A stretch of DNA of 64,000 nt from assembly GCA_019636475.1 (NCBI GenBank), contig JAHBXN010000007.1, positions 1 to 64,000 on the forward strand. The letters run 5' to 3'. Numbering within the stretch: the first letter of the stretch is position 1; every line of letters starts with the position of its first letter. Positions 48,952 through 61,564 of the stretch are shown in pieces. The notes beneath the pieces are model-generated. The model ran no database searches. It saw only the letters and a list, made by a program, of their open reading frames with translations, and had not been told where the DNA came from. Origin of the DNA: Phycisphaerae bacterium. GTDB lineage: Bacteria; Planctomycetota; Phycisphaerae; UBA1845; UTPLA1. A program made the translations under genes and the position numbers.

Positions 48952-49680
48952 TCAGGGCTGCGCCGTGCGCTCGATGATTCGCGAATCCCGATCGGATTGC
49001 GGCAGCGGAAGGAGCGTCGCCGCGGAACCTGAAATTCTTGACAGGATGATCTCCGCAAGGCGGAGAAATCCGTCCGGCTCGTCATTTTGAGGGACGGCTG
49101 TTCCGATGATGGGAACCGATGGATTGATTCGGTCGATATCTTCGCGAACGACCGCCAGATTGAACCGGACAAACGGCAGCAGGTCGCACTTGGTGACCGC
49201 CACTATCGCAACATCCTTGAAGAGAAGCGGATACTTCGAAGGCTTGTCATCCCCCTCGGTCACACTGAGCACGGCAACACGGAAATGCTCTCCGAGGTCG
49301 AAATTCGCCGGGCAAATCGGATTGCCGACGTTTTCGATGATGAGTAGATCAATCTCGGCGAGTGGAAGTTCCTTTAGCGCGTGGCTGACCAGTGTGGCGT
49401 TAAGGTGACAACCGCCTTCGGTGAGAAGCTGGACCACCGGCACGCCGAGTGCTGCAATGCGTTCGGCATCGCGAGTGGTCGCCAGATCGCCCTCCAGCAC
49501 GGCGATTCGCTTCGAATCCGTGAGGATCGGAATCAAGCTTTCGAGGACCGACGTTTTTCCTGAGCCGGCTCCGCCGAGCAAGTTGACGCAGCACACGTTA
49601 TTTGCGTCGAACAGCGCGCGATTTTCTTTCGCCGCATTTTCATTTTTCTCAAACACATTTCGCAGCACACTGAACTTCAT
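48952..49680 (-). CDS. hypB: Hydrogenase nickel-insertion GTPase HypB
   Basis: A 242-aa SIMIBI-class GTPase that, with HypA, loads nickel into hydrogenase precursors. The P-loop is GGAGSGKTS, the metal site GGCHLNATLV (Cys-His at the dimer interface), the switch segment ENVGNPICPANFDLGE and the guanine motif TKCDLLP. The N-terminal CxxCGC of E. coli HypB and a His-rich stretch are absent. The start at 49680 has GGAG seven bases upstream and overlaps the end of hypA by 32 bases. Last gene of the hydrogenase operon. Confidence 0.95.
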   Translation of the reverse strand: MKFSVLRNVFEKNENAAKENRALFDANNVCCVNLLGGAGSGKTSVLESLIPILTDSKRIAVLEGDLATTRDAERIAALGVPVVQLLTEGGCHLNATLVSHALKELPLAEIDLLIIENVGNPICPANFDLGEHFRVAVLSVTEGDDKPSKYPLLFKDVAIVAVTKCDLLPFVRFNLAVVREDIDRINPSVPIIGTAVPQNDEPDGFLRLAEIILSRISGSAATLLPLPQSDRDSRIIERTAQP

Positions 49681-50026
49681 CTGGTATCTCCGCGTCAATT
49701 GAGACAATCTGCAACTCGTCTCCGCCGACGCCGTACACCCCTTCCGCTCCGCAGCGAGGGCAGCTCCAGACCCATTCTAGCACTTCGAAAGACGAATCAC
49801 ACGATTTACACTTCGTATGAACATGCGAGATTTCAACTTCCAGATTCGAGGCGGAACAACAGGTCCCTTCGGCGCAGAGCGTGAAGGCCTCTGCAAGAAG
49901 GGAGGCTTCTATCTGCCGCAACACACCGACTCGAACCAGTACGGAGGTTACCCGACTGGCGCCGACCTCTTCTGCCGCCTTCTGCACCTGCTCGACGATC
50001 ATTCTCGCGACCGCAAACTCATGCAT
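49649..50026 (-). CDS. hypA: Hydrogenase/urease nickel incorporation protein HypA
   Basis: A 125-aa nickel metallochaperone. It begins MHE, whose His2 and backbone bind nickel, and has a zinc site formed by CKSC and CPRC. Length is slightly above the family mean owing to a C-terminal extension (DAEIPDEVQCAAKCV) that overlaps hypB. Starts three bases after the endopeptidase stop. Confidence 0.95.
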   Translation of the reverse strand: MHEFAVARMIVEQVQKAAEEVGASRVTSVLVRVGVLRQIEASLLAEAFTLCAEGTCCSASNLEVEISHVHTKCKSCDSSFEVLEWVWSCPRCGAEGVYGVGGDELQIVSIDAEIPDEVQCAAKCV

Positions 50027-50029
50027 CGC

Positions 50030-50536
50030 TCAAGCCTCCGTTGCGATGGGTCTACCGCTCAGTGCCCGCACTGCTTCCACGATGGCGCTTGCAACCTCAT
50101 GGGAAGCCTGATCCACTTCCGAAGTCAGCGATTCAGCATGCCGGACATCGCCCACGGCAATCGCATAAACCCAGACCGCGTCGGCGCGTCTTGGTGCATT
50201 GACCACGAATTTCAACCCGACATCCACGCTGAGCGAGTGCGTCGACGTCGCGCACCGTGCACGGACGCGCTCGGGCGCGGCCAGATAGTCGATGCACTGC
50301 CATGTCCCGGGCGGGTGTGTTTCGTCGCTCCGCGCCGAGTCAATGACAATCAGTAAGTCCGTCTGCTCCAACTCAGCGGCAATATCGGTGCCCGGCGATT
50401 CGGTTGTCCGAACTACAACATCCGGAATCCGCCGGGCGGCCACTCGCTCCGCGGTGATCAATCCAACCTGATCGTCACCTCGAAACCATCGCCCACAGCC
50501 GATGATTGTCACGGATTTCCGGGTCTCCGCCGTCAT
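50030..50536 (-). CDS. Hydrogenase maturation endopeptidase
   Basis: A 168-aa protease of the HycI/HybD/HoxW (M52) family that removes the C-terminal peptide of the hydrogenase large subunit once nickel is inserted. The nickel-sensing residues are present: Asp in CGRWFRGDDQVG, Asp in LLIVIDSAR, and His in STHSLSVD. The ATG at 50536 overlaps the large-subunit stop (ATGA), so the longer frame is rejected. Substrate specificity is implied by the neighbour. Confidence 0.9.
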   Translation of the reverse strand: MTAETRKSVTIIGCGRWFRGDDQVGLITAERVAARRIPDVVVRTTESPGTDIAAELEQTDLLIVIDSARSDETHPPGTWQCIDYLAAPERVRARCATSTHSLSVDVGLKFVVNAPRRADAVWVYAIAVGDVRHAESLTSEVDQASHEVASAIVEAVRALSGRPIATEA

Positions 50537-51843
50537 TCGTCCACCCATTCGACATCGAGTAGATGTGTCGCGCACGAAATGCACGGATCGTACGCACGCA
50601 CGAGCATCTCGAGTTGCAGCGTGATTTCCTCGCGACCGAGGTCGCGATCCAGCAATTGCGGCACGAGCGCCCGCATGTCGGCCTCGATATTGGCGAGATT
50701 CTGTCCCGTCGGGATCACCAGATTCGAGCTCTCGATGCGGCCGGATGAATCGACGCCATACTCATGAAACAGAACACCGCGCGGCACCTCGCTCGCGCCG
50801 GCGCCCAGTCCGAATCGGGTTGGTTTGACGAGCGTTTCCGGCCTAAGGCCTGTGGTCAAGAGGCGATCGATCAACTCGATGGCCGATTCGATGCAATGGA
50901 CGGACTCCACGAGTTGCGCGGTGTTGTTGTGGTAGGGGTTGGTGCAAATCGGTTCCAGTCCCAGTTCCCTGGCGATCGCCGCCGCGACGGGGTGAAGCTG
51001 ATCATGGTTGTTGTTGAAGCGTGCCAGCGCCCCGACCGCATACGTTTCAGCGTTTGGTGATCGACAGTGTTTTGCCGCCGAATGCGGAACCACGTGTTCG
51101 ATGACTCGATCGCGATAGGCCGAGACCGGGGTCGGGTTGGGGTCCAGCGTCGACACGATGTCCCCCTCGTAGAAGGCATACTCACCGTTTCCGACGACTC
51201 TGAGCGAAACATATTCCGTGTCGCGATTGAACTGCGGCACCGAAAGGGACTTGAACAAATCAACCATTTCACGCATGTCGGATCGCGAATCCTCCAGGCG
51301 CGATTTGATATCGCGAAGTTCCTCCGGCCTGGGCACGTGCGAAACCCCGCCGACCTGCAGCGCGATCGGGTGAATGTGCCGACCTCCGATCACACCGCAC
51401 AGATCGTTGGCCAGCTTCTTCATGCGCAGAGCCCGCTTCACCACATCCGGATGGGTCGTTGCAAGCGGCACCACCGAGCCGACGCCGAGAAAGTCGGGCA
51501 CTGCAAGAAAATACAGGTGGAGAAAATGGCTTTGCAGTTCCTCACCATACAGTGCAAGCTTGCGCAGCATGTCGGCCTGCTCGGATACCTTGATGCCGCA
51601 GGCCATCTCCATCGCATGAACGCTGGCCGTTGTGTGACCAACTGAACAGATGCCGCAGATTCGGCAAGTGATGTGCGGGGCTTCGTACCATTGCCGCCCG
51701 CGCAGGAAGGACTCAAAGAACCGCGGACTCTCGACGATGGCCAGTTCGAGCCGGGTAATCTCGCCGTTCGACACATTGATCGCAATGTTGCCGTGCCCCT
51801 CCACGCGGGTGACATGCTTCACATCGATGGTGACGTTTCTCAT
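50533..51843 (-). CDS. hydA: [NiFe]-hydrogenase large (alpha) subunit, group 3b type
   Basis: A 436-aa catalytic subunit that holds the NiFe(CN)2CO centre. The L1 motif RICGICSVGH and the L2 motif DPCISCATH supply the four Cys ligands. Typical N-terminus VTRVEGHGNI. Residues after the final His (LLDVEWVDE) are the short peptide expected to be cut by the endopeptidase encoded next. ATG 51843 is set by the ATGA overlap with hydD and by the conserved N-terminus; about 100 unconserved upstream codons are rejected. Group 3b is inferred from the hydBGD neighbours. Confidence 0.93.
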   Translation of the reverse strand: MRNVTIDVKHVTRVEGHGNIAINVSNGEITRLELAIVESPRFFESFLRGRQWYEAPHITCRICGICSVGHTTASVHAMEMACGIKVSEQADMLRKLALYGEELQSHFLHLYFLAVPDFLGVGSVVPLATTHPDVVKRALRMKKLANDLCGVIGGRHIHPIALQVGGVSHVPRPEELRDIKSRLEDSRSDMREMVDLFKSLSVPQFNRDTEYVSLRVVGNGEYAFYEGDIVSTLDPNPTPVSAYRDRVIEHVVPHSAAKHCRSPNAETYAVGALARFNNNHDQLHPVAAAIARELGLEPICTNPYHNNTAQLVESVHCIESAIELIDRLLTTGLRPETLVKPTRFGLGAGASEVPRGVLFHEYGVDSSGRIESSNLVIPTGQNLANIEADMRALVPQLLDRDLGREEITLQLEMLVRAYDPCISCATHLLDVEWVDE

Positions 51844-52583
51844 GGCAGATCGCCTTCCTGATAAGCGCCGTACAGACGAAGATCGTCCATCACATCCTTG
51901 ACGGAAGCGTTGTAGGTCTCGCGTATGTTCACTCCCGCGGCTGCGAGCCCCTCCCTGCTGATCAAACCGCGACACCCTTCGCACTTCGAGCCGAAAGTGG
52001 GGCAGATTGCAGAACACCCGCCCCGCGTGACCGGCCCCAGACAGAAGATTCCCTGATCGTAGAGGCAAGGGTTTCCTCGCTTCTTGCACTCGACGCATAC
52101 CGGAGAATCGGGCAAGCGAAACACTTTTCCCATCAGCATGCACTTAACGAATTCAAGGAACTCCTCCTTGACCATTGGACAACCGGGCAACTCGTAATCG
52201 ACTTTCACGATCGCTGACAACGGCTTGGCTCTTGTGGTCGGAAAGTAATTCGCCATGTCGCCGTAGACGCATCGCCGATAATCGCTTTCTGACTGGTAAT
52301 TCTTCAGAGTATTGACGCCACCCAGGCATGCACAGGCCCCGATCGCGACGAGCACCCTGCTTTTCTCACGAATGTGCTGAATCTCCTTGGCGTCCTGCGG
52401 CGTTGAGACTGCCCCATCAACAAAGGCGATGTCGATGTCCCAGTCGCGATCGGTCATTCCTTCGCGGAAATTCACGATCTCGACGGCGCCGAGGATATCA
52501 AGAAGGTGATCCTCGAGTTCCAGAATCGCGAGCGAACAGCCTTCGCAGCTCGTTAGACTGAAGATGGCGATTTTAGGCTTCAT
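51840..52583 (-). CDS. hydD: [NiFe]-hydrogenase small (delta) subunit
   Basis: A 247-aa electron-transfer subunit. The proximal 4Fe-4S cluster is bound by SLTSCEGCSLAIL, GACACLGG and ELPGCP. Unlike short small subunits, it has a further Cys-rich C-terminal part (CVECKKRGNPC, CLGPVTRGGCSAICPTFGSKCEGCRG) for additional clusters, as in group 3b HydD. No Tat signal, so cytoplasmic. Starts 66 bases after hydG and overlaps hydA. Confidence 0.93.
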   Translation of the reverse strand: MKPKIAIFSLTSCEGCSLAILELEDHLLDILGAVEIVNFREGMTDRDWDIDIAFVDGAVSTPQDAKEIQHIREKSRVLVAIGACACLGGVNTLKNYQSESDYRRCVYGDMANYFPTTRAKPLSAIVKVDYELPGCPMVKEEFLEFVKCMLMGKVFRLPDSPVCVECKKRGNPCLYDQGIFCLGPVTRGGCSAICPTFGSKCEGCRGLISREGLAAAGVNIRETYNASVKDVMDDLRLYGAYQEGDLP

Positions 52584-52649: not shown

Positions 52650-53507
52650 TCATTCCACCGCTTCGCGCATGGCCTTGAGTCGTCCATATTTGAACACCGG
52701 ACCATCGAGGCACACATACACATCATTCGCCTGACAGTTTCCACACTTTCCGATTCCGCACTTCATGCGGCGCTCCAGCGAACAGTAAATGCTCGATTGC
52801 GGAATGCCGCGGGCGAGGACTTCCAGCACAACAAACTTGAACATGACCGGCGGCCCCACGATGACCGCCTTCGTGGTCGACGGATCGAGCCGGGGCAGAC
52901 CACGGAACAGCGTCGTCACGACGCCCGTCTTTCCGCGCCATTGTTCATCAGGACGGTCAACGGTCACTTCGAAGTGCAATCGCGGATCGAGCCGCCAATG
53001 TGTCAGATCATCTGCAAAAAGCAGATCGGCCGGCTGTCGCGCGCCGTAGAGCACATAGAATTCTCCGAAACGATCGCGCTCATCGAGGACGTACTGGATC
53101 AGTGATCGCACCGGCGCCAGGCCCAGGCCGCCTGCGACAATGAGGATGTCCTTACCGTGCAGTTCGTCCACGTTGAATCCGTGTCCCAGCGGCCCGCGAA
53201 TGCCAAGCACATCGCCGACGCTCATTCGATGGATCGCCTCCGTCACCATGCCCACCCGTCGGATGCACATCTGAAAGACCTGCGGCCGCGTCGGTGAGGA
53301 GCAGATCGAGATGGGACACTCTCCAAAACCGAAGACGGAGACCTGAACGAACTGCCCCGGCGCATGACCCAGCGGCCGGCCCCCGGGCATTTCGATATCA
53401 AACAGCCGCTCATATTCGGTCAGCCGACGAATTTTAGTGATCATGCCGGGCTCGGGGACATAGAGGCCGGGTTCCTGAATCGCGCCGGCAGAGATAGTCG
53501 CAGACAT
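52650..53507 (-). CDS. hydG: Hydrogenase FAD/NAD(P)-binding (gamma) subunit
   Basis: A 285-aa ferredoxin-NADP reductase-like subunit. An FAD domain (HAPGQFVQVSVFGFGECPIS) is followed by an NAD(P) domain with DILIVAGGLGLAPVRSLI, and a C-terminal 2Fe-2S motif CGIGKCGNCQANDVYVCLDG like dihydroorotate dehydrogenase B electron-transfer subunits. It passes electrons between NAD(P) and HydB. The ATG at 53507 has AGGA upstream and begins one base after the hydB stop; the longer frame to 53603 is rejected. Confidence 0.92.
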   Translation of the reverse strand: MSATISAGAIQEPGLYVPEPGMITKIRRLTEYERLFDIEMPGGRPLGHAPGQFVQVSVFGFGECPISICSSPTRPQVFQMCIRRVGMVTEAIHRMSVGDVLGIRGPLGHGFNVDELHGKDILIVAGGLGLAPVRSLIQYVLDERDRFGEFYVLYGARQPADLLFADDLTHWRLDPRLHFEVTVDRPDEQWRGKTGVVTTLFRGLPRLDPSTTKAVIVGPPVMFKFVVLEVLARGIPQSSIYCSLERRMKCGIGKCGNCQANDVYVCLDGPVFKYGRLKAMREAVE

Positions 53508-53508
53508 A

Positions 53509-54561
53509 TTAGATTTCCTCCGCGAGCTGGTTGTAGATCTCCACCGAATTAATCTTCGCGGTGCATGCCCGGTCGCAGCGCGCACAGCCAACACACCCTG
53601 CAATCCCCGACTGGTCCTTCACCCACTTGGCTTTTCGAAAAATTCGATGTCGCAGCCGGGACGCAGCCTTGGGACGAAAATTGTGTGGTCCGGCAACCTC
53701 CGCAAACTTCTCCAGTTGGCAGCCGTCCCATTCTCGCTTGCGTTCGCCGCGCGTCAGGGTCATGTCGGTTTCATCGAAGATGTTGAAGCAGTAGCAGGTC
53801 GGGCACGCCATATTGCAACTCCCGCAGGAGTAGCACCTCCGCGCCGTCGCCTCCCATAGCAGTGAGTCGTAAGAGCGATTCAGCAGCGACGGCAGTTCTT
53901 CCAGACGGGTCTTGAGCCGGTGCGGAAAAGCCGCTTCTTTGCGACGCTGGTACTCCTCCATCGCGCGCTCGTCGGCAGCCTTGGGTATCGCGCCGATCGA
54001 TCCCTTCTGAAGCCGCACCTCCCCACGCTTGGAACCGAAGACCAAGCCGTACCGCATGTCATTCGGCCCGCTGCCCTGCTCCAGCGGAAAGAGCATCAGA
54101 TCAAAGCCGTCTTTCGCGACATTGCCGTGCATGTCCGCGCAGAACACACCCACCGTGCATTCCTTTGCGCAATCGACGCCGATAATGAACGCACACTCCC
54201 GGCGGGACAAGTAATGCTCATCGCGATGATCCTTCGAAAAGACGCGGTCCAACAGGCGAATCGCATTAATATCGCAGGGATGCACCCCCACAAAGGCCGT
54301 CGGAACCCGCTCAATCGAAAGAGTGGACTCGAATCGACCATTCTGCCTGCTGAACTGAAACAGCGTCTCTGTCGGCGGAAACAGAAACGCTCGCGGGCCA
54401 TAGACGCAGTAGGAGAACGTCAAGTCGAGCCCGGATAAGTCGGTCAGTATCTCATAGAAGTACTGACCACCACGCAGAACCGGCCCGACGATTCGATGTT
54501 CAGGGGCCAGATCGGCGACGATCCTGAGCACCTCCGCATGAGTGATGATTCGATCCAACAT
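53509..54561 (-). CDS. hydB: Hydrogenase 4Fe-4S (beta) subunit
   Basis: A 350-aa iron-sulfur subunit. Two ferredoxin-type clusters are near the C-terminus: CYSCGSCNMACPTCYC and CVGCARCDRAC. The N-terminal part contains FVGVHPCDINAIRLLDRVF and GVDCAKECTVG, as in the HydB/AsrA family, which can be linked to sulfite or polysulfide reduction. GAGGG lies seven bases before the ATG. First of the four structural genes. Confidence 0.92.
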   Translation of the reverse strand: MLDRIITHAEVLRIVADLAPEHRIVGPVLRGGQYFYEILTDLSGLDLTFSYCVYGPRAFLFPPTETLFQFSRQNGRFESTLSIERVPTAFVGVHPCDINAIRLLDRVFSKDHRDEHYLSRRECAFIIGVDCAKECTVGVFCADMHGNVAKDGFDLMLFPLEQGSGPNDMRYGLVFGSKRGEVRLQKGSIGAIPKAADERAMEEYQRRKEAAFPHRLKTRLEELPSLLNRSYDSLLWEATARRCYSCGSCNMACPTCYCFNIFDETDMTLTRGERKREWDGCQLEKFAEVAGPHNFRPKAASRLRHRIFRKAKWVKDQSGIAGCVGCARCDRACTAKINSVEIYNQLAEEI

Positions 54562-54780: not shown

Positions 54781-55209
54781 TCACTCCACCGAACGCATCC
54801 AGCGGCCGCCAAACGAGTTCGATTCCAGTGTTTGCAGGACAATCTGTCGCAGATGTGCCGGTTCGATCGGCTTTGCAATGAATTGCTGGGCGGGCAGATA
54901 ATCGGTCCCTAACTCCCGTGCCAAGTCGATGTCGGTCTTGACGTGTACGTCCGTGGAGACAATAACCGGCATTTTCCGGAAGATCTCGTCGCGCCGAAGA
55001 TCGTATAGCAGATGCAGACCCTCTGTGGCGCCGCCGGTACCGATCTCCAATATCAGCATATTCGGGACCAGTTCTCGCAGAATCTTACGCCCCTGCGATA
55101 CGGACTCGACCGCTTCAACCAGAATGTGCTCTGATGATAGTGCCGCCCGCATCATCTGATGAACGCCTTGATCATGATCGATCAGCAGGACGATCGCGCG
55201 TGTCTTCAT
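54781..55209 (-). CDS. Stand-alone receiver-domain protein with Glu at the phospho site
   Basis: A 142-aa CheY-like receiver with no output domain. The acidic pocket is LLIDHDQG, the conserved Thr lies in VIVSTDVHV and Lys in FIAKPIEP. The position normally holding the phospho-acceptor Asp reads MLILEIGTGG, that is Glu. It is therefore either phospho-mimetic or not phosphorylated in the usual way. ATG 55209 has GGAGG nine bases upstream. It lies between hypE (51-base gap) and hydB on the same strand, suggesting a role in hydrogenase expression or activity. Confidence 0.8.
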   Translation of the reverse strand: MKTRAIVLLIDHDQGVHQMMRAALSSEHILVEAVESVSQGRKILRELVPNMLILEIGTGGATEGLHLLYDLRRDEIFRKMPVIVSTDVHVKTDIDLARELGTDYLPAQQFIAKPIEPAHLRQIVLQTLESNSFGGRWMRSVE

Positions 55210-55260
55210 CGTGTAGGTCCTCCAGAGATCAGGCCGTGCCCTCACATCGCGCAACTGCGA

Positions 55261-56298
55261 TCAACAGATTCGGGGCAACTCCTCGCCATACGGCCGCTGA
55301 ACGATACGTCGTCCGCCAGAGCGTGTAATTAACTCCACGAGTGCAGGATGTTCATCCGTTACGCGTCCAATGACCGCGGCGTGTCTTCCTTCAGGCCACA
55401 TTCTCATCGCTGAGACCACAAGCGCCGCTTCCTCCATTGGGACAAAGCAGACGACTTTTCCCTCATTCGCGATTGTCAGAGGATCCAGCCCAAGCAGATC
55501 CGCCGCGCGCTGCGCCGTCGGCGTAATCGGAATATCCGATTCGTCCACGATAATGCTTGCGCCGGATGCCTCACTCACATCGGCCAGGACTCCGGCAAGT
55601 CCACCGCGCGTGGCGTCGCGCATGAATCGGACCGTCGCACCACATTCCAATACACGCCCGATCAATCGATTCAGGGGCGCGGCATCGCTTCGCATGTGTG
55701 AATCGAATTCCATGCCGGCGCGAAGCGACATGATCGCCAGTCCGTGCTCGGCAATCGGACCGTTCACGATCACCGCGTCGCCCGGGCAGACCTGATCCGC
55801 CGCCAGTTTCGGCCGCTCCGGCGTCAATTCTCCGAGGCCGGAGGTGTTGATATACATTCCATCGCCGGACCGCCGTTCGAGAACCTTCGTATCGCCCGTC
55901 ACGATTCGAACTCCCGCTTCCGCCGCAGTCGCTGCGATCGACGCGATGATTCGATCCAACACGGCGATCGGCAGTCCTTCTTCGATGATCATTCCCAGGC
56001 TTAGCGCGATGGGTCGAGCGCCCATGACGGCCAGATCGTTGACCGTTCCCGCCACCGCGATGCGTCCGATGTCGCCACCCGGAAACTCCAGCGGCGACAC
56101 CACGAACGAATCCGTCGTGAAGATCACGTCACCGCCCCGCCACGGCACAATCGCGCTGTCCTCAAAGCGATCCAGAATCGGATTACTGAGCATCGGCGCG
56201 ATTCGCTCCCGAACGAGGCGCGCGGTCATCTCGCCGCCCCCGCCATGCGCCAGAACGATCCGCTCCATGTTATTCGAGACGGCTGTGAATCCGTTCAT
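55261..56298 (-). CDS. hypE: Hydrogenase expression/formation protein HypE
   Basis: A 345-aa PurM-like ATP-dependent dehydratase that turns the carbamoyl group on its C-terminal Cys into a thiocyanate for Fe-CN synthesis. The N-terminus LAHGGGGEM, the ATP-site FTTDSFVVSPLEFPGGDIG and DATRGGLAGVL are canonical, and the chain ends in PRIC with the essential terminal Cys. ATG 56298 overlaps the hypD stop (ATGA). Confidence 0.95.
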   Translation of the reverse strand: MNGFTAVSNNMERIVLAHGGGGEMTARLVRERIAPMLSNPILDRFEDSAIVPWRGGDVIFTTDSFVVSPLEFPGGDIGRIAVAGTVNDLAVMGARPIALSLGMIIEEGLPIAVLDRIIASIAATAAEAGVRIVTGDTKVLERRSGDGMYINTSGLGELTPERPKLAADQVCPGDAVIVNGPIAEHGLAIMSLRAGMEFDSHMRSDAAPLNRLIGRVLECGATVRFMRDATRGGLAGVLADVSEASGASIIVDESDIPITPTAQRAADLLGLDPLTIANEGKVVCFVPMEEAALVVSAMRMWPEGRHAAVIGRVTDEHPALVELITRSGGRRIVQRPYGEELPRIC

Positions 56299-57413
56299 GT
56301 CACGCCCTCCATTTTCGCGTCCGACGGCTCCGCGCTCCGTCCTGGTTTCGGGCCGTACTTGAACCAGGCTGAACATGCACCCTCACCGCTCACCATGCAT
56401 GGTCCGATCGGCGTCATCGGCGTACAGCCCCCGCCGAACAGCGCACAGCGGTTCGGTTCGACTCGCCCCTGAATCACCTCCCCACAGCGACAGACCGGGT
56501 GATCGACATCTTCACCGAGGGCCATGCCGAATCGACGAAGCGCATCAAATCGTCGATAGGCTGGGGCAAATTCAAGGCCACTCACAGGAATGACACCGAG
56601 AGCACGCCATACCGTATCCGCTTCAACAAACACCCGCGAGAGTAAACCGAGCGCGACTGAATTACCTTCCGGTCGGACGACTGCGTCATAGACGTTCTCA
56701 AGTTTCGGCGTCCCGCATTCAATCTGCCGGAGCAAATGCACGAGGCCGGCGAGCATCTGCCCGAACTCGAATCCGGCGACGACGCAGGGCTTGCCAAAGT
56801 CATCCACGATCGGGCGATAGGCCTCGGATCCGATAATGACACTGACATGCCCTGGACATAAGAAGCCGTCAATCGGCACATCGCCCGCAGAGAGCAGTGC
56901 CCGCATCGCCGGAATCACCAGTTTGTGACAGCTCAAGACCGAGAAATTCTCGATACCGCCCGCTTCCGCCTCCAGCACCGTCGCCGCGGCCGCGGGCGCC
57001 GTTGTCTCGAAGCCAACACCGAGAAACACGACTTCGGAGTTCGGCTCGTTGCGGGCAAGTTCCAGCGCTGCTCGAGCCGAAGTGACGACGCGAATCCTGG
57101 CACCGAGAGACCGAAGACGCTCCAGGCTTCCGTTTCGGCCCGGCACGCGCATCATGTCGCCATATGTGGCGATCGCGACCGTTTCGCGCCTCGCCAGTTC
57201 AAGCGCCGCGTCGATGTGCCGCTGGGCCGTCACGCAGACAGGACAGCCCGGACCGCTCAGCAGTTTCAGATTCGCCGGGAGCATCGACTTCAATCCGCTG
57301 CGAAACGCCGAGACCGTGTGCGTGCCGCACACCTCCATCAACTGCACGCGCCGCCCGATCCGGTCGCACAGTCGAATCAGCTCCCGTCGCAAGTTCTCAA
57401 CGTTATTGTTCAT
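56295..57413 (-). CDS. hypD: Hydrogenase formation protein HypD
   Basis: A 372-aa iron-sulfur scaffold that, with HypC, assembles the Fe(CN)2CO unit. Conserved motifs are MEVCGTHTVSAF, LLSGPGCPVCV, VGFETTAPA and the Cys-rich C-terminus CRCGEVIQGRVEPNRC...FGGGCTPMTPIGPCMVSGEGAC that binds the 4Fe-4S cluster. The ATG at 57413 overlaps the end of hypC by 11 bases. Confidence 0.95.
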   Translation of the reverse strand: MNNNVENLRRELIRLCDRIGRRVQLMEVCGTHTVSAFRSGLKSMLPANLKLLSGPGCPVCVTAQRHIDAALELARRETVAIATYGDMMRVPGRNGSLERLRSLGARIRVVTSARAALELARNEPNSEVVFLGVGFETTAPAAAATVLEAEAGGIENFSVLSCHKLVIPAMRALLSAGDVPIDGFLCPGHVSVIIGSEAYRPIVDDFGKPCVVAGFEFGQMLAGLVHLLRQIECGTPKLENVYDAVVRPEGNSVALGLLSRVFVEADTVWRALGVIPVSGLEFAPAYRRFDALRRFGMALGEDVDHPVCRCGEVIQGRVEPNRCALFGGGCTPMTPIGPCMVSGEGACSAWFKYGPKPGRSAEPSDAKMEGVT

Positions 57414-57678
57414 CGCTTCTCGCCGTCTCGGTTTGCTCGACCGCCTCGACAAACTCAACCTCATTGCCTGAATAACATGCCTTCAGGTAGTCCCATGTCT
57501 CCATTGCCGAAGATTCCGGGATCGTCGAAATTGCAAAGCCGGCGTGAACCAGTACCCAGTCGCCGGGACCGGCCTTGGGCGTCAGAACCCGACTGACGCG
57601 CAGCCGATTGCCCTCAAACGCCACCGTCGCCTCATCCCCCTCGCAGTCGACGATTTTACCCGGCACCGCTAGGCACAT
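57403..57678 (-). CDS. hypC: Hydrogenase assembly chaperone HypC
   Basis: A 91-aa HypC/HupF chaperone. The invariant MCLAVPGKIV start gives the Cys2 that carries iron ligands to the large subunit. The beta-barrel continues with GDWVLVHAGFAI. It overlaps the hypF-like gene by ten bases and hypD by eleven. Confidence 0.95.
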   Translation of the reverse strand: MCLAVPGKIVDCEGDEATVAFEGNRLRVSRVLTPKAGPGDWVLVHAGFAISTIPESSAMETWDYLKACYSGNEVEFVEAVEQTETARSDEQ

Positions 57679-58895
57679 TGTTGCACCCTATCGCTGACGG
57701 CCGCACCGGCAATGCACTGTCCAAGTGCCAATGTCTCGTCACCCCAAAGAAGCTGTCTCGAAGCGCACACGCGAAGATGGCGGTCCTCCAGTCGCTGGGT
57801 CAGCCGTGACCGCAGCTTCCGATTAGCGAAACAGCCGCCGGCGAGGACAACCGTTGTCAAACCACACGCATCGCAGGACATCAAGGCGGTAGCCGAGAGC
57901 ATTCGCGCCACGGTCTCATGAAATCGTGCCGAGATTTCAGCTGCGGAATGCCCAGCGGCGATGTCTCGCACGATTCCACGAATCATTGGCGCCGGCGACA
58001 TGATCATCGCGCCTCTTTCGAATCGTGTTTCATAGGGATAAGGCTCGGCGCGGCCGTCGACGGCGATTGCTTCGAGCGCGGAGGCCGCATCCGCCAGCCC
58101 GGTGTTGCGGTCGCAAATTCCCAGCAGGAACGCAACCGCGTCGAACAATCGCCCCATGCTGGAAGTCACCGGCGCATTGAGCGCGCGCGTCCGCATCTGC
58201 TCGAAAAGTTCCAGCGTCAACTGCGGAATGCGTGCGAATATCGGGGCGCAATCGACACGCCAATTGTTGCCGAATGCCTGGCATGCCAGCGCGGCCGCCG
58301 GCCGCCATGTCTCCACGGCCGCAAGGTTGCCGCCGACAAGGGGAAAGTATTCCAGATGCGCCCGCCGCTCGAAACTGGCGGTGTCACACGAAAGCACTTC
58401 GCCCCCCCAGGCCGCACCATCCGTTCCGTATCCAACCCCGTCACAGCAAATCGCGACAACTCGGCGGTCGATGCCCCACTCAGCCATGACGGACACGGCG
58501 TGAGCGTGATGATGCTGCACACCGACACAAGGCAATCCGATGGACTTGGCCAATATGGTCGACAGATACTGCGGATGCAGGTCATGTGCGATTACATCCG
58601 GTCGATAGTTGTCGTTCTTCATGATCGAACTGACGATTCTCGTAAAGTGCCGGTACACACTCGGCACTTTCAAATCGCCAACAGGCCCCATGAGCACGGC
58701 CCGCCGACCCCTCGTGGAGCAAACGGTTGACTTGAGTTCCCCACCGACGCCCAAGACGCGCACCCGAGATGCACGAAACAGTCGCAAGTGCCGAATCCGA
58801 AATGTTCGGTTCCGATCAGACGTTGCCGAATCGCTCTGCACGCTGTGTTCGAATGAGAGACTCGGGCTCTCTGTATTTACACCCGCTTTCGCCAT
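57669..58895 (-). CDS. hypF: HypF-like protein containing only the C-terminal Kae1-like carbamoyltransferase half
   Basis: A 408-aa protein matching the second half of HypF, which is normally about 750 aa. It starts in the inter-domain linker (VLGVGGELKSTVCSTRGRRA) and contains the metal-binding VQHHHAHAVS, the nucleotide-site CDGVGYGTDGAAWGGE and VVLAGGCFANRKLR. The N-terminal acylphosphatase, zinc-finger and YrdC-like domains are missing. The ATG at 58895 has GGAG eight bases upstream, and no such domains are encoded upstream on this strand. It would transfer a carbamoyl group to HypE, but formation of carbamoyl-adenylate would need another protein. I recall a truncated HypF1 in Cupriavidus necator; this is from memory. 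Confidence 0.88.
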   Translation of the reverse strand: MAKAGVNTESPSLSFEHSVQSDSATSDRNRTFRIRHLRLFRASRVRVLGVGGELKSTVCSTRGRRAVLMGPVGDLKVPSVYRHFTRIVSSIMKNDNYRPDVIAHDLHPQYLSTILAKSIGLPCVGVQHHHAHAVSVMAEWGIDRRVVAICCDGVGYGTDGAAWGGEVLSCDTASFERRAHLEYFPLVGGNLAAVETWRPAAALACQAFGNNWRVDCAPIFARIPQLTLELFEQMRTRALNAPVTSSMGRLFDAVAFLLGICDRNTGLADAASALEAIAVDGRAEPYPYETRFERGAMIMSPAPMIRGIVRDIAAGHSAAEISARFHETVARMLSATALMSCDACGLTTVVLAGGCFANRKLRSRLTQRLEDRHLRVCASRQLLWGDETLALGQCIAGAAVSDRVQQCA

Positions 58896-59347
58896 CGATT
58901 GAACTCCGTTTCATAGATCCGCCGATGTCAGAGCGGTCCACTGAACTGGCATGTCGCAAACTGAGTGCCATTCGTGTGATGAGATTTTCAACGGGCCGGC
59001 CCGGGGGTGAACCGAATCTCGATGCCAATTCACGAATCGACTTGGAGGAATGTGGAGGCACTGCGAACTCCATCCACTTATCGGGACCGATCGGATCACT
59101 ATGGCTGCCCCGGCAGAACTCGCCGGATGGAGTCCATTCGTGTATTTCCTCGCAACCCTGCGCGACAACTCGCACTTGAGCGGCGAGCGCGCCTCGAAGC
59201 ACCGACTTCTCACGAGCCCAGGGGGCATCGGCGGACGTTCAATCCTTGCCGATAACGATCGGCAATCGAATTGCAGTCGCAAGAGTGCGATGACTGCGTT
59301 GCCGCCGAGCGCCGGCACCCGAGGGAACCTGGAGGCACGAGGTGGAG
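58896..59347. other. Divergent intergenic region at the hydrogenase operon start
   Basis: About 450 bases between the divergent hypF-like and PLP-enzyme genes. It holds both ribosome-binding sites. Short frames on both strands (for example 58911-59318 minus) have atypical composition and no recognised product. The operon promoter should lie here, but no consensus pair stands out. Confidence 0.5.
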
Positions 59348-60739: not shown

Positions 60740-61564
60740 TCAAACCGGCCTGAACGCGATCAATGATGCAACGAATCGCCTCGGAGCCGCGAGTCCCTCC
60801 GATTTGTGGATAATTTCCCATCCCGGGAAATACCTACACAACTCGCCGTTCTTCAGCAGGTGAAGATCACTTCGAGGCTTGCCGAACAGCCGGCGTTGCT
60901 CCTCCACGAACGTTTCGTAAACTACGATTCCACCGGGCCGCACACCTCTTGCAATCGACGCCATCAGCGGCCGGTGCAGAAAGTTAAAACAAACGATTGC
61001 GTCATAAGCAGCGTCTTCAATCGACAGATCACATTCGACATCTCCAACACACGCGGTGAGGCGCACGCCATTCCGATCGGCCAGATCGCGGCAACGCTCG
61101 AGCGCATCCGGTAGAATGTCCCATGCCTCGACCGACATGCCGTGGAGCGCCATACTCACGGCATCGCGTCCAGTCCCACAGGCGATATCCAGCGCGCGAC
61201 GACCGACGAGTCCTCCCCACCTTGATTCGGCCACCTCCAGACCCCGAAGCAGCAGGCTGTGTGGCGACCAGAGCCGTCCCATCGAGCGTCCACACTCGAT
61301 CGGTCCGGACAACAACCAGTGCCTGCCGGCACGCCAGACCACCTGATCACGTCCGCGCGCCCGCAGTCGGGAAACGGCCCACCGCGCGCGACGCGCATCG
61401 TCGTCGTAAATGCAGACCGGGGCATGTCGCGACGGCAGTTCGTGAATCCGCGCCGTTAGTTCCTCCAGTGCGATGTTCACCGCACCCGAGCGATGCCCCT
61501 TCTCGAATGCCGACGGTTGCCGCACATCCAGAATGGCGATCCTGAATTCCGGACTCTTATCCAC
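60740..61564 (-). CDS. Inactive rhodanese-like domain fused to SAM methyltransferase
   Basis: A 274-aa fusion. Residues 1-100 are rhodanese-like (ILDVRQPSAFEKGHRSGAVNIAL, then PVCIYDDDARRARWAVSRL). The catalytic Cys expected at the active loop is replaced by Asp (YDDD), so sulfur transfer is unlikely. Residues about 115-270 are a class I methyltransferase with RALDIACGTGRDAV and a TehB-like continuation (YDAIVCFNFLHRPL). The start is GTG with AAAGGT upstream. Its 3' end forms an AGGCCGG/CCGGCCT inverted repeat with the intergenic space. Confidence 0.8.
   Translation of the reverse strand: MDKSPEFRIAILDVRQPSAFEKGHRSGAVNIALEELTARIHELPSRHAPVCIYDDDARRARWAVSRLRARGRDQVVWRAGRHWLLSGPIECGRSMGRLWSPHSLLLRGLEVAESRWGGLVGRRALDIACGTGRDAVSMALHGMSVEAWDILPDALERCRDLADRNGVRLTACVGDVECDLSIEDAAYDAIVCFNFLHRPLMASIARGVRPGGIVVYETFVEEQRRLFGKPRSDLHLLKNGELCRYFPGWEIIHKSEGLAAPRRFVASLIAFRPV

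Follow-up and report, generated by a model that had tools for sequence, protein, structure and literature searches.

A HypF reduced to its Kae1-like half as the sole HypF in 26 genomes of a planctomycete order

HypF is the enzyme with which synthesis of the hydrogenase's iron-bound cyanide begins. Canonical HypF (E. coli 3TSP; 3VTH/3VTI) carries acylphosphatase, zinc fingers, and YrdC in one chain with its Kae1-like transferase domain, and its tunnel shields labile carbamate until the adenylate forms (PMC12134894). The window, by which we mean the whole 64,000-nucleotide stretch of Phycisphaerae DNA that was analyzed, encodes a short HypF that has the Kae1-like fold and metal site of the canonical protein and is expected to act likewise on HypE, but it has none of the other domains. 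The locus raises the question of whether such a protein works as a HypF and, if so, where its activated carbamoyl group comes from. Classes of Kae1-family transferases have been described (PMC9633730). The features of the locus are the following.

58904-58907, minus strand: Shine-Dalgarno-like GGAG, 8 nucleotides 5' of the hypF ATG, read from the sequence
57669-58895, minus strand: short hypF, 408 amino acids from an ATG start, Kae1-like (HypF_C plus HypF_C_2), by Pfam and TIGR00143
57403-57678, minus strand: hypC, with the start MCLAVPG (Cys2 present), overlapping hypF by 10 bases
56295-57464, minus strand: hypD, with CGTH and GPGCPVC motifs, by profile match and motifs
55261-56376, minus strand: hypE, with a C-terminal PRIC holding the acceptor Cys, by profile match and motif
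54781-55254, minus strand: stand-alone receiver-domain protein between hypE and hydB, by domain match and operon comparison
53509-54561, minus strand: hydrogenase Fe-S subunit (sulfhydrogenase beta-like), by model match
52650-53603, minus strand: hydrogenase FAD/NAD(P) subunit (gamma-like), by model match
51840-52583, minus strand: hydrogenase small subunit (delta-like), by model match
50533-52143, minus strand: hydrogenase large subunit (alpha-like), by model match; true start likely near 51849
50030-50584, minus strand: hydrogenase maturation protease-like protein, by operon position and conservation, the family by sequence reading
49649-50026, minus strand: hypA, by domain match
48952-49707, minus strand: hypB-like GTPase, by sequence and conserved operon place

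The gene order is hypF-hypC-hypD-hypE-receiver protein-hydB-hydG-hydD-hydA-protease-hypA-hypB, and the hydrogenase operon is otherwise complete, as a prior sequence-only reading had it, with hypA and hypB at its far end. In the large subunit, HydA, the motifs CGIC and DPCISC are present, and the C terminus bears a cleavable tail. The subunits resemble NAD(P)-linked sulfhydrogenases, with scores below the cut-offs of those models. The receiver-domain gene (54781-55254, minus strand) recurs at the same operon place in many relatives, including genome G109, which has a full HypF. Elsewhere in the window, 60740-61564 (minus strand) encodes a Rhodanese domain fused to a methyltransferase.

The Pfam matches of the short HypF are HypF_C at residues 45-139 and HypF_C_2 at 149-393, besides a weak overlapping match to TsaD, and acylphosphatase, zinc-finger, and YrdC domains are absent. 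TIGR00143 aligns over its positions 373-739 of 741 only, and the resulting 247 bits fall below the equivalog cut-off of 466 for the full-length four-domain chain, which bears out the claim that only the Kae1 half of HypF is present. Against the TsaD equivalog the protein scores 38.8 bits (cut-off, 296). Its AlphaFold (AF2) model has a pLDDT of 90.5, with the HypF chains 3vth, 3vti, and 3tsp as the closest in the PDB, and Foldseek ranked HypF far above TsaD. What identifies it as a HypF is the Kae1-like C-terminal transferase domain with its conserved His/Asp metal site, accompanied by hypCDE and the genes of a [NiFe] hydrogenase; as an intact gene for the Kae1 half only, in a hyp operon, it is of the HypF1 type discussed below.

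A missing half might have lain upstream in another frame or elsewhere in the genome, and neither was found. A stop codon 5 codons 5' of the hypF ATG closes the frame, the gene upstream is divergent (a PLP enzyme, from 59342 on the plus strand), and tblastn queries made from seven full HypFs, each cut to its N-terminal half, matched nothing in the 64-kb window; the observation of a genuinely short gene was therefore right. The same queries matched nothing in loci from short-HypF relatives either, their sole match being the window genome's own stand-alone acylphosphatase. The GGAG 8 nucleotides before the ATG and the ten-base overlap with hypC were both seen where they had been reported, and no other HypF was found in the window genome (4.4 Mb in 18 contigs, 95% complete).

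HypF is present in 73 of the 114 genomes of the order. The lengths of its open frames are bimodal, mostly about 770-930 amino acids for the full form and about 345-550 amino acids, stop to stop, for the short form, which is the only HypF in 26 of the 73 genomes, a count made after contig-edge cases had been set aside. The short gene heads a conserved operon, hypF-C-D-E-(RR)-hydBGDA-protease-A-B, in most of the 26. Where genes in the relatives' loci are complete, HypE keeps PRIC, HydA keeps CGIC and DPCISC, and HypC begins with MCLA (VCLA in one), its Cys2 intact; HypD is intact where found. G109, of the window's own family, has a four-domain full-length HypF at the same place in the operon, and the short and full proteins are therefore orthologues. 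In genome G049 (L044), a short-HypF operon lies near hydrogenase subunits with only distant similarity to those of the window (large subunit, about 129 bits), and the short HypF may thus work for different types of hydrogenase. Across a sample of the whole phylum, HypFs were almost all of full length, plus a few frames that are short by length; among 80 loci from named genomes, 71 were full length and only two were clear short forms, both planctomycete (L084 and L105). Viral relatives of the short HypF were sought, and none were found.

Phylogenetic trees of 62 and of 135 Kae1 domains, both quick and with long branches, place the short forms in several positions. One group is a clade of 15, mostly from family f8, and a second is a clade of about 10 that includes the window sequence; G015 falls among the full HypFs of f3 and GSL.Bin20 among those of f7. 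On the 135-domain tree 5 changes are needed, and the starred branches force at least 4. These placements suggest that the missing half was lost independently at least 4-5 times, including once in the lineage of Cupriavidus necator HypF1. We infer that the direction was loss and not gain, since the short forms are nested among full HypFs and the four-domain chain is general.

The residues expected of a working transferase persist throughout. Short forms with as little as 35% identity all keep H128, H132, D152, the GxGxG stretch, D386, and others unchanged, and most of these residues are common to full HypFs. The His and Asp of the Kae1 metal site do not vary among C. necator HypF1 and 20 short forms from planctomycetes. 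With the short form alone in 26 of 73 genomes, these active-site residues invariant, and HypE, HypC, HypD, and HydA intact where found, the short HypF is a maintained form rather than a product of decay, as had been supposed from its ribosome-binding site and overlap with hypC.

Two positions behave differently. At the position of window residue P71, 106 full HypFs from many phyla have His in 101, Tyr in 4, and Phe in 1, and none of these three residues occurs in any of 29 short forms. Gly387, which adjoins Asp386 (presumably a metal ligand), is Gly in 104 of the 106 full HypFs and gapped in the remaining 2, but Gly in only 2 of the 29 short forms, Ala being the main replacement. For the loss of His71, the supported independent contrasts of the tree (4 of 4) run in the same direction, so few that a sign test cannot go below 0.125. 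Because the signature was found post hoc, by scanning alignment columns, it is a lead for mutation and not proof of mechanism, and at both positions the residue replaced may just be one that used to touch the missing half. Relative to HypD, the divergence of the Kae1 domain has a median ratio of 1.91 in short forms versus 1.47 in full ones, and relative to HypE it is 1.79 versus 1.38, i.e., the short domain evolves about 1.3 times faster. This rate counts against the explanation that we prefer, although it fits relief from contacts with the lost half, as opposed to neutral decay.

The sequence-only reading took the gene for a candidate of a less described variant, which does not hold for its architecture. 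C. necator H16 HypF1 (pHG1, WP_011153939, 394 amino acids), reportedly described originally by Wolf et al. in 1998, likewise consists of HypF_C and HypF_C_2 only. Its gene also precedes hypC with a 10-base overlap, and it too has no His at position 71 and has Ala in place of Gly387. Its origin is separate, however; in the tree HypF1 joins HypF2 of C. necator with a support of 99, whereas the window form is nested within planctomycete HypFs, so that the two do not share a single origin as short forms. Acidovorax temperans pEP1 encodes another such protein (WP_026436963, 393 amino acids), with HypF_C, HypF_C_2, and a weak match to TsaD that overlaps them. The gene lies in a hyp operon and shares 10 bases with hypC; unlike the window form, it groups with HypF1 beside C. 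necator HypF2 (plasmid pEP1 was covered). On pEP1 (L203:2980-4161, plus strand) it is annotated only as a hypothetical protein.

C. necator, unlike the window genome, also has hypF2 and hypF3, and HypF1 is therefore not its sole HypF. An external supply of carbamoyl adenylate has already been proposed for HypF1, which comprises one of three HypF domains and likely needs it, with the supply perhaps sufficient only aerobically (PMC9100943). Its seeming inactivity under anaerobic conditions (PMC9100943) counts against our preferred explanation. An E. coli hypF mutant was not complemented by HypF1, whose synthesis was undetected there (PMC5350229); E. coli does have a TsaC, and this result likewise counts against our preferred explanation. 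What is new here is the short form as the sole HypF across a planctomycete order and, on the alignments examined, an apparent residue signature at 71 and 387 common to short HypFs.

It had been suggested that a stand-alone YrdC-like or acylphosphatase protein feeds the short HypF. Separate genes of two of the three kinds to be sought turned up, one acylphosphatase and one YrdC protein, and no zf-HYPF domain scored over the cut-off in the window genome. The YrdC protein joins TsaC and a low-molecular-weight phosphotyrosine phosphatase (LMWPTP) in one chain.

L001:1006-2130 (G000:C5), minus strand: TsaC-LMWPTP fusion, by Pfam

It is of a housekeeping type, alike in relatives with full HypF. A TsaC of fusion length with a phosphatase-like motif occurs in 40 of 40 other genomes of the order compared. 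The stand-alone acylphosphatase was rejected as a HypF partner, being near-universal in the order, with or without HypF, and showing no association. Across the order, 23 of 26 short-HypF genomes (mostly 91-98% complete) have a single genuine YrdC protein, versus two in most full-HypF genomes. The other three (G104, G107, and G108) have a second YrdC, each a strong full-length match and that of G104 Sua5-type by Pfam, but none adjoins hyp genes, and they were rejected as dedicated partners; a protein of about 600 amino acids in G021, G047, G093, and G096 (L234-L237) was discounted as a second YrdC, having only a 20-bit partial match. Nor does TsaC appear adapted in short-HypF genomes, since no alignment column discriminates 19 TsaC proteins of short-HypF genomes from 20 of full-HypF genomes. 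With YrdC usually single, TsaC-LMWPTP alike in both groups, and acylphosphatase near-universal, there is no recognizable dedicated partner, and the suggestion of one specific to the short HypF was not borne out.

With only the transfer half encoded, carbamoyl delivery must differ from the canonical one-protein tunnel, as had been anticipated. In the model that we favor, the Kae1-like domain of the short HypF would bind carbamoyl-adenylate and carbamoylate HypE on its C-terminal Cys, after which HypE would form the cyanide ligands; that the protein is catalytically active on HypE is predicted with good confidence. Carbamoyl-phosphate hydrolysis and carbamate adenylation would no longer reside in the HypF polypeptide, and since many relatives also have no partner gene for the missing half, another component of the cell would have to activate the carbamoyl group. 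The short HypF would take up carbamoyl-adenylate in trans, from solution or from TsaC, and we consider such a supply reasonably likely. It is made plausible by t6A synthesis, where TsaC/Sua5, a YrdC protein on its own, produces the adenylate without depending on the separate Kae1-family protein (PMC9654439). TsaC/Sua5 and TsaD are separate YrdC and Kae1 proteins joined by an adenylate intermediate, as a reduced HypF would work, but the group is threonylcarbamoyl, the acceptor is tRNA, and the transferase belongs to another family.

Among homologues, the likeliest supplier would be TsaC-LMWPTP, which is the one YrdC protein of the cell. The usual substrate of TsaC is the carbamate of threonine, which it adenylates; with plain carbamate, derived from carbamoyl phosphate or from ammonia plus bicarbonate, the reaction would be of the same kind and the substrate smaller, and we infer this activity from the shared chemistry. 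Nothing marks TsaC as adapted, given the lack of a discriminating column, and this counts against it. We hold TsaC as supplier to be a tentative possibility. The fuller proposal, that the t6A enzyme TsaC doubles as a carbamoyl-adenylate synthase while the supply domains of HypF were lost repeatedly and two of its otherwise near-invariant positions changed, is likewise doubtful. A functional HypE carbamoyltransferase fed in trans, whatever the supplier, is a prediction in which we place fair confidence.

Two other readings would leave no functional short HypF. That an assembly or sequencing error removed the first half has nothing in its favor except surprise itself, and the chance of it is close to negligible, because the short frame recurs: a like truncation is seen in the plasmid records of C. 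necator and Acidovorax, both complete, as well as in 26 genomes, and no frame of the loci holds a trace of the N-half. Alternatively, the gene could be decaying or inactive and leave the hydrogenase immature or without normal cyanide ligands; the faster evolution of the short domain would favor this, as would the failure of C. necator HypF1 to act when tested in E. coli. Yet the active site has stayed invariant through two deep clades, one of about 10 members and one of about 15, the operon and the HypE acceptor Cys are intact, and there were several independent origins, so that this reading appears highly improbable.

Two further readings keep the protein active but change the source of its carbamoyl group. 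There might be a dedicated adenylating partner that is unrelated to YrdC or whose gene is missing from the assembly; domain searches are blind to a nonhomologous replacement, and the window genome is 95% complete. We think this unlikely, as 23 of 26 short-HypF genomes have no second YrdC, and the only recurring extra operon gene among those compared, encoding the receiver-domain protein, is found also in G109 with its full HypF. Alternatively, the short Kae1 domain may have changed its chemistry and use carbamoyl phosphate directly, with or without ATP, and with neither adenylate nor YrdC. The change, along with truncation, of positions near-invariant in full HypF (His71 in 0 of 29, Gly387 in 2 of 29) would suit this, as would the failure to find a dedicated YrdC to make adenylate, but the short forms retain the metal site and conserved residues of a Kae1 fold that uses the adenylate, and residues 71 and 387 may once have been contacts with the missing half. 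To our knowledge no Kae1-family transferase uses carbamoyl phosphate directly, and we regard the reading as distinctly unlikely.

Organisms with a tunnel-less HypF as their sole one would show the canonical carbamate-protecting tunnel to be dispensable. The source of carbamoyl-adenylate, a question confounded in C. necator by HypF2 and HypF3, can be posed cleanly in these planctomycetes, and repeated truncation has yielded a residue signature that is testable by mutation. Should the TsaC reading be true, tRNA modification and hydrogenase cyanide synthesis would share one adenylating enzyme.
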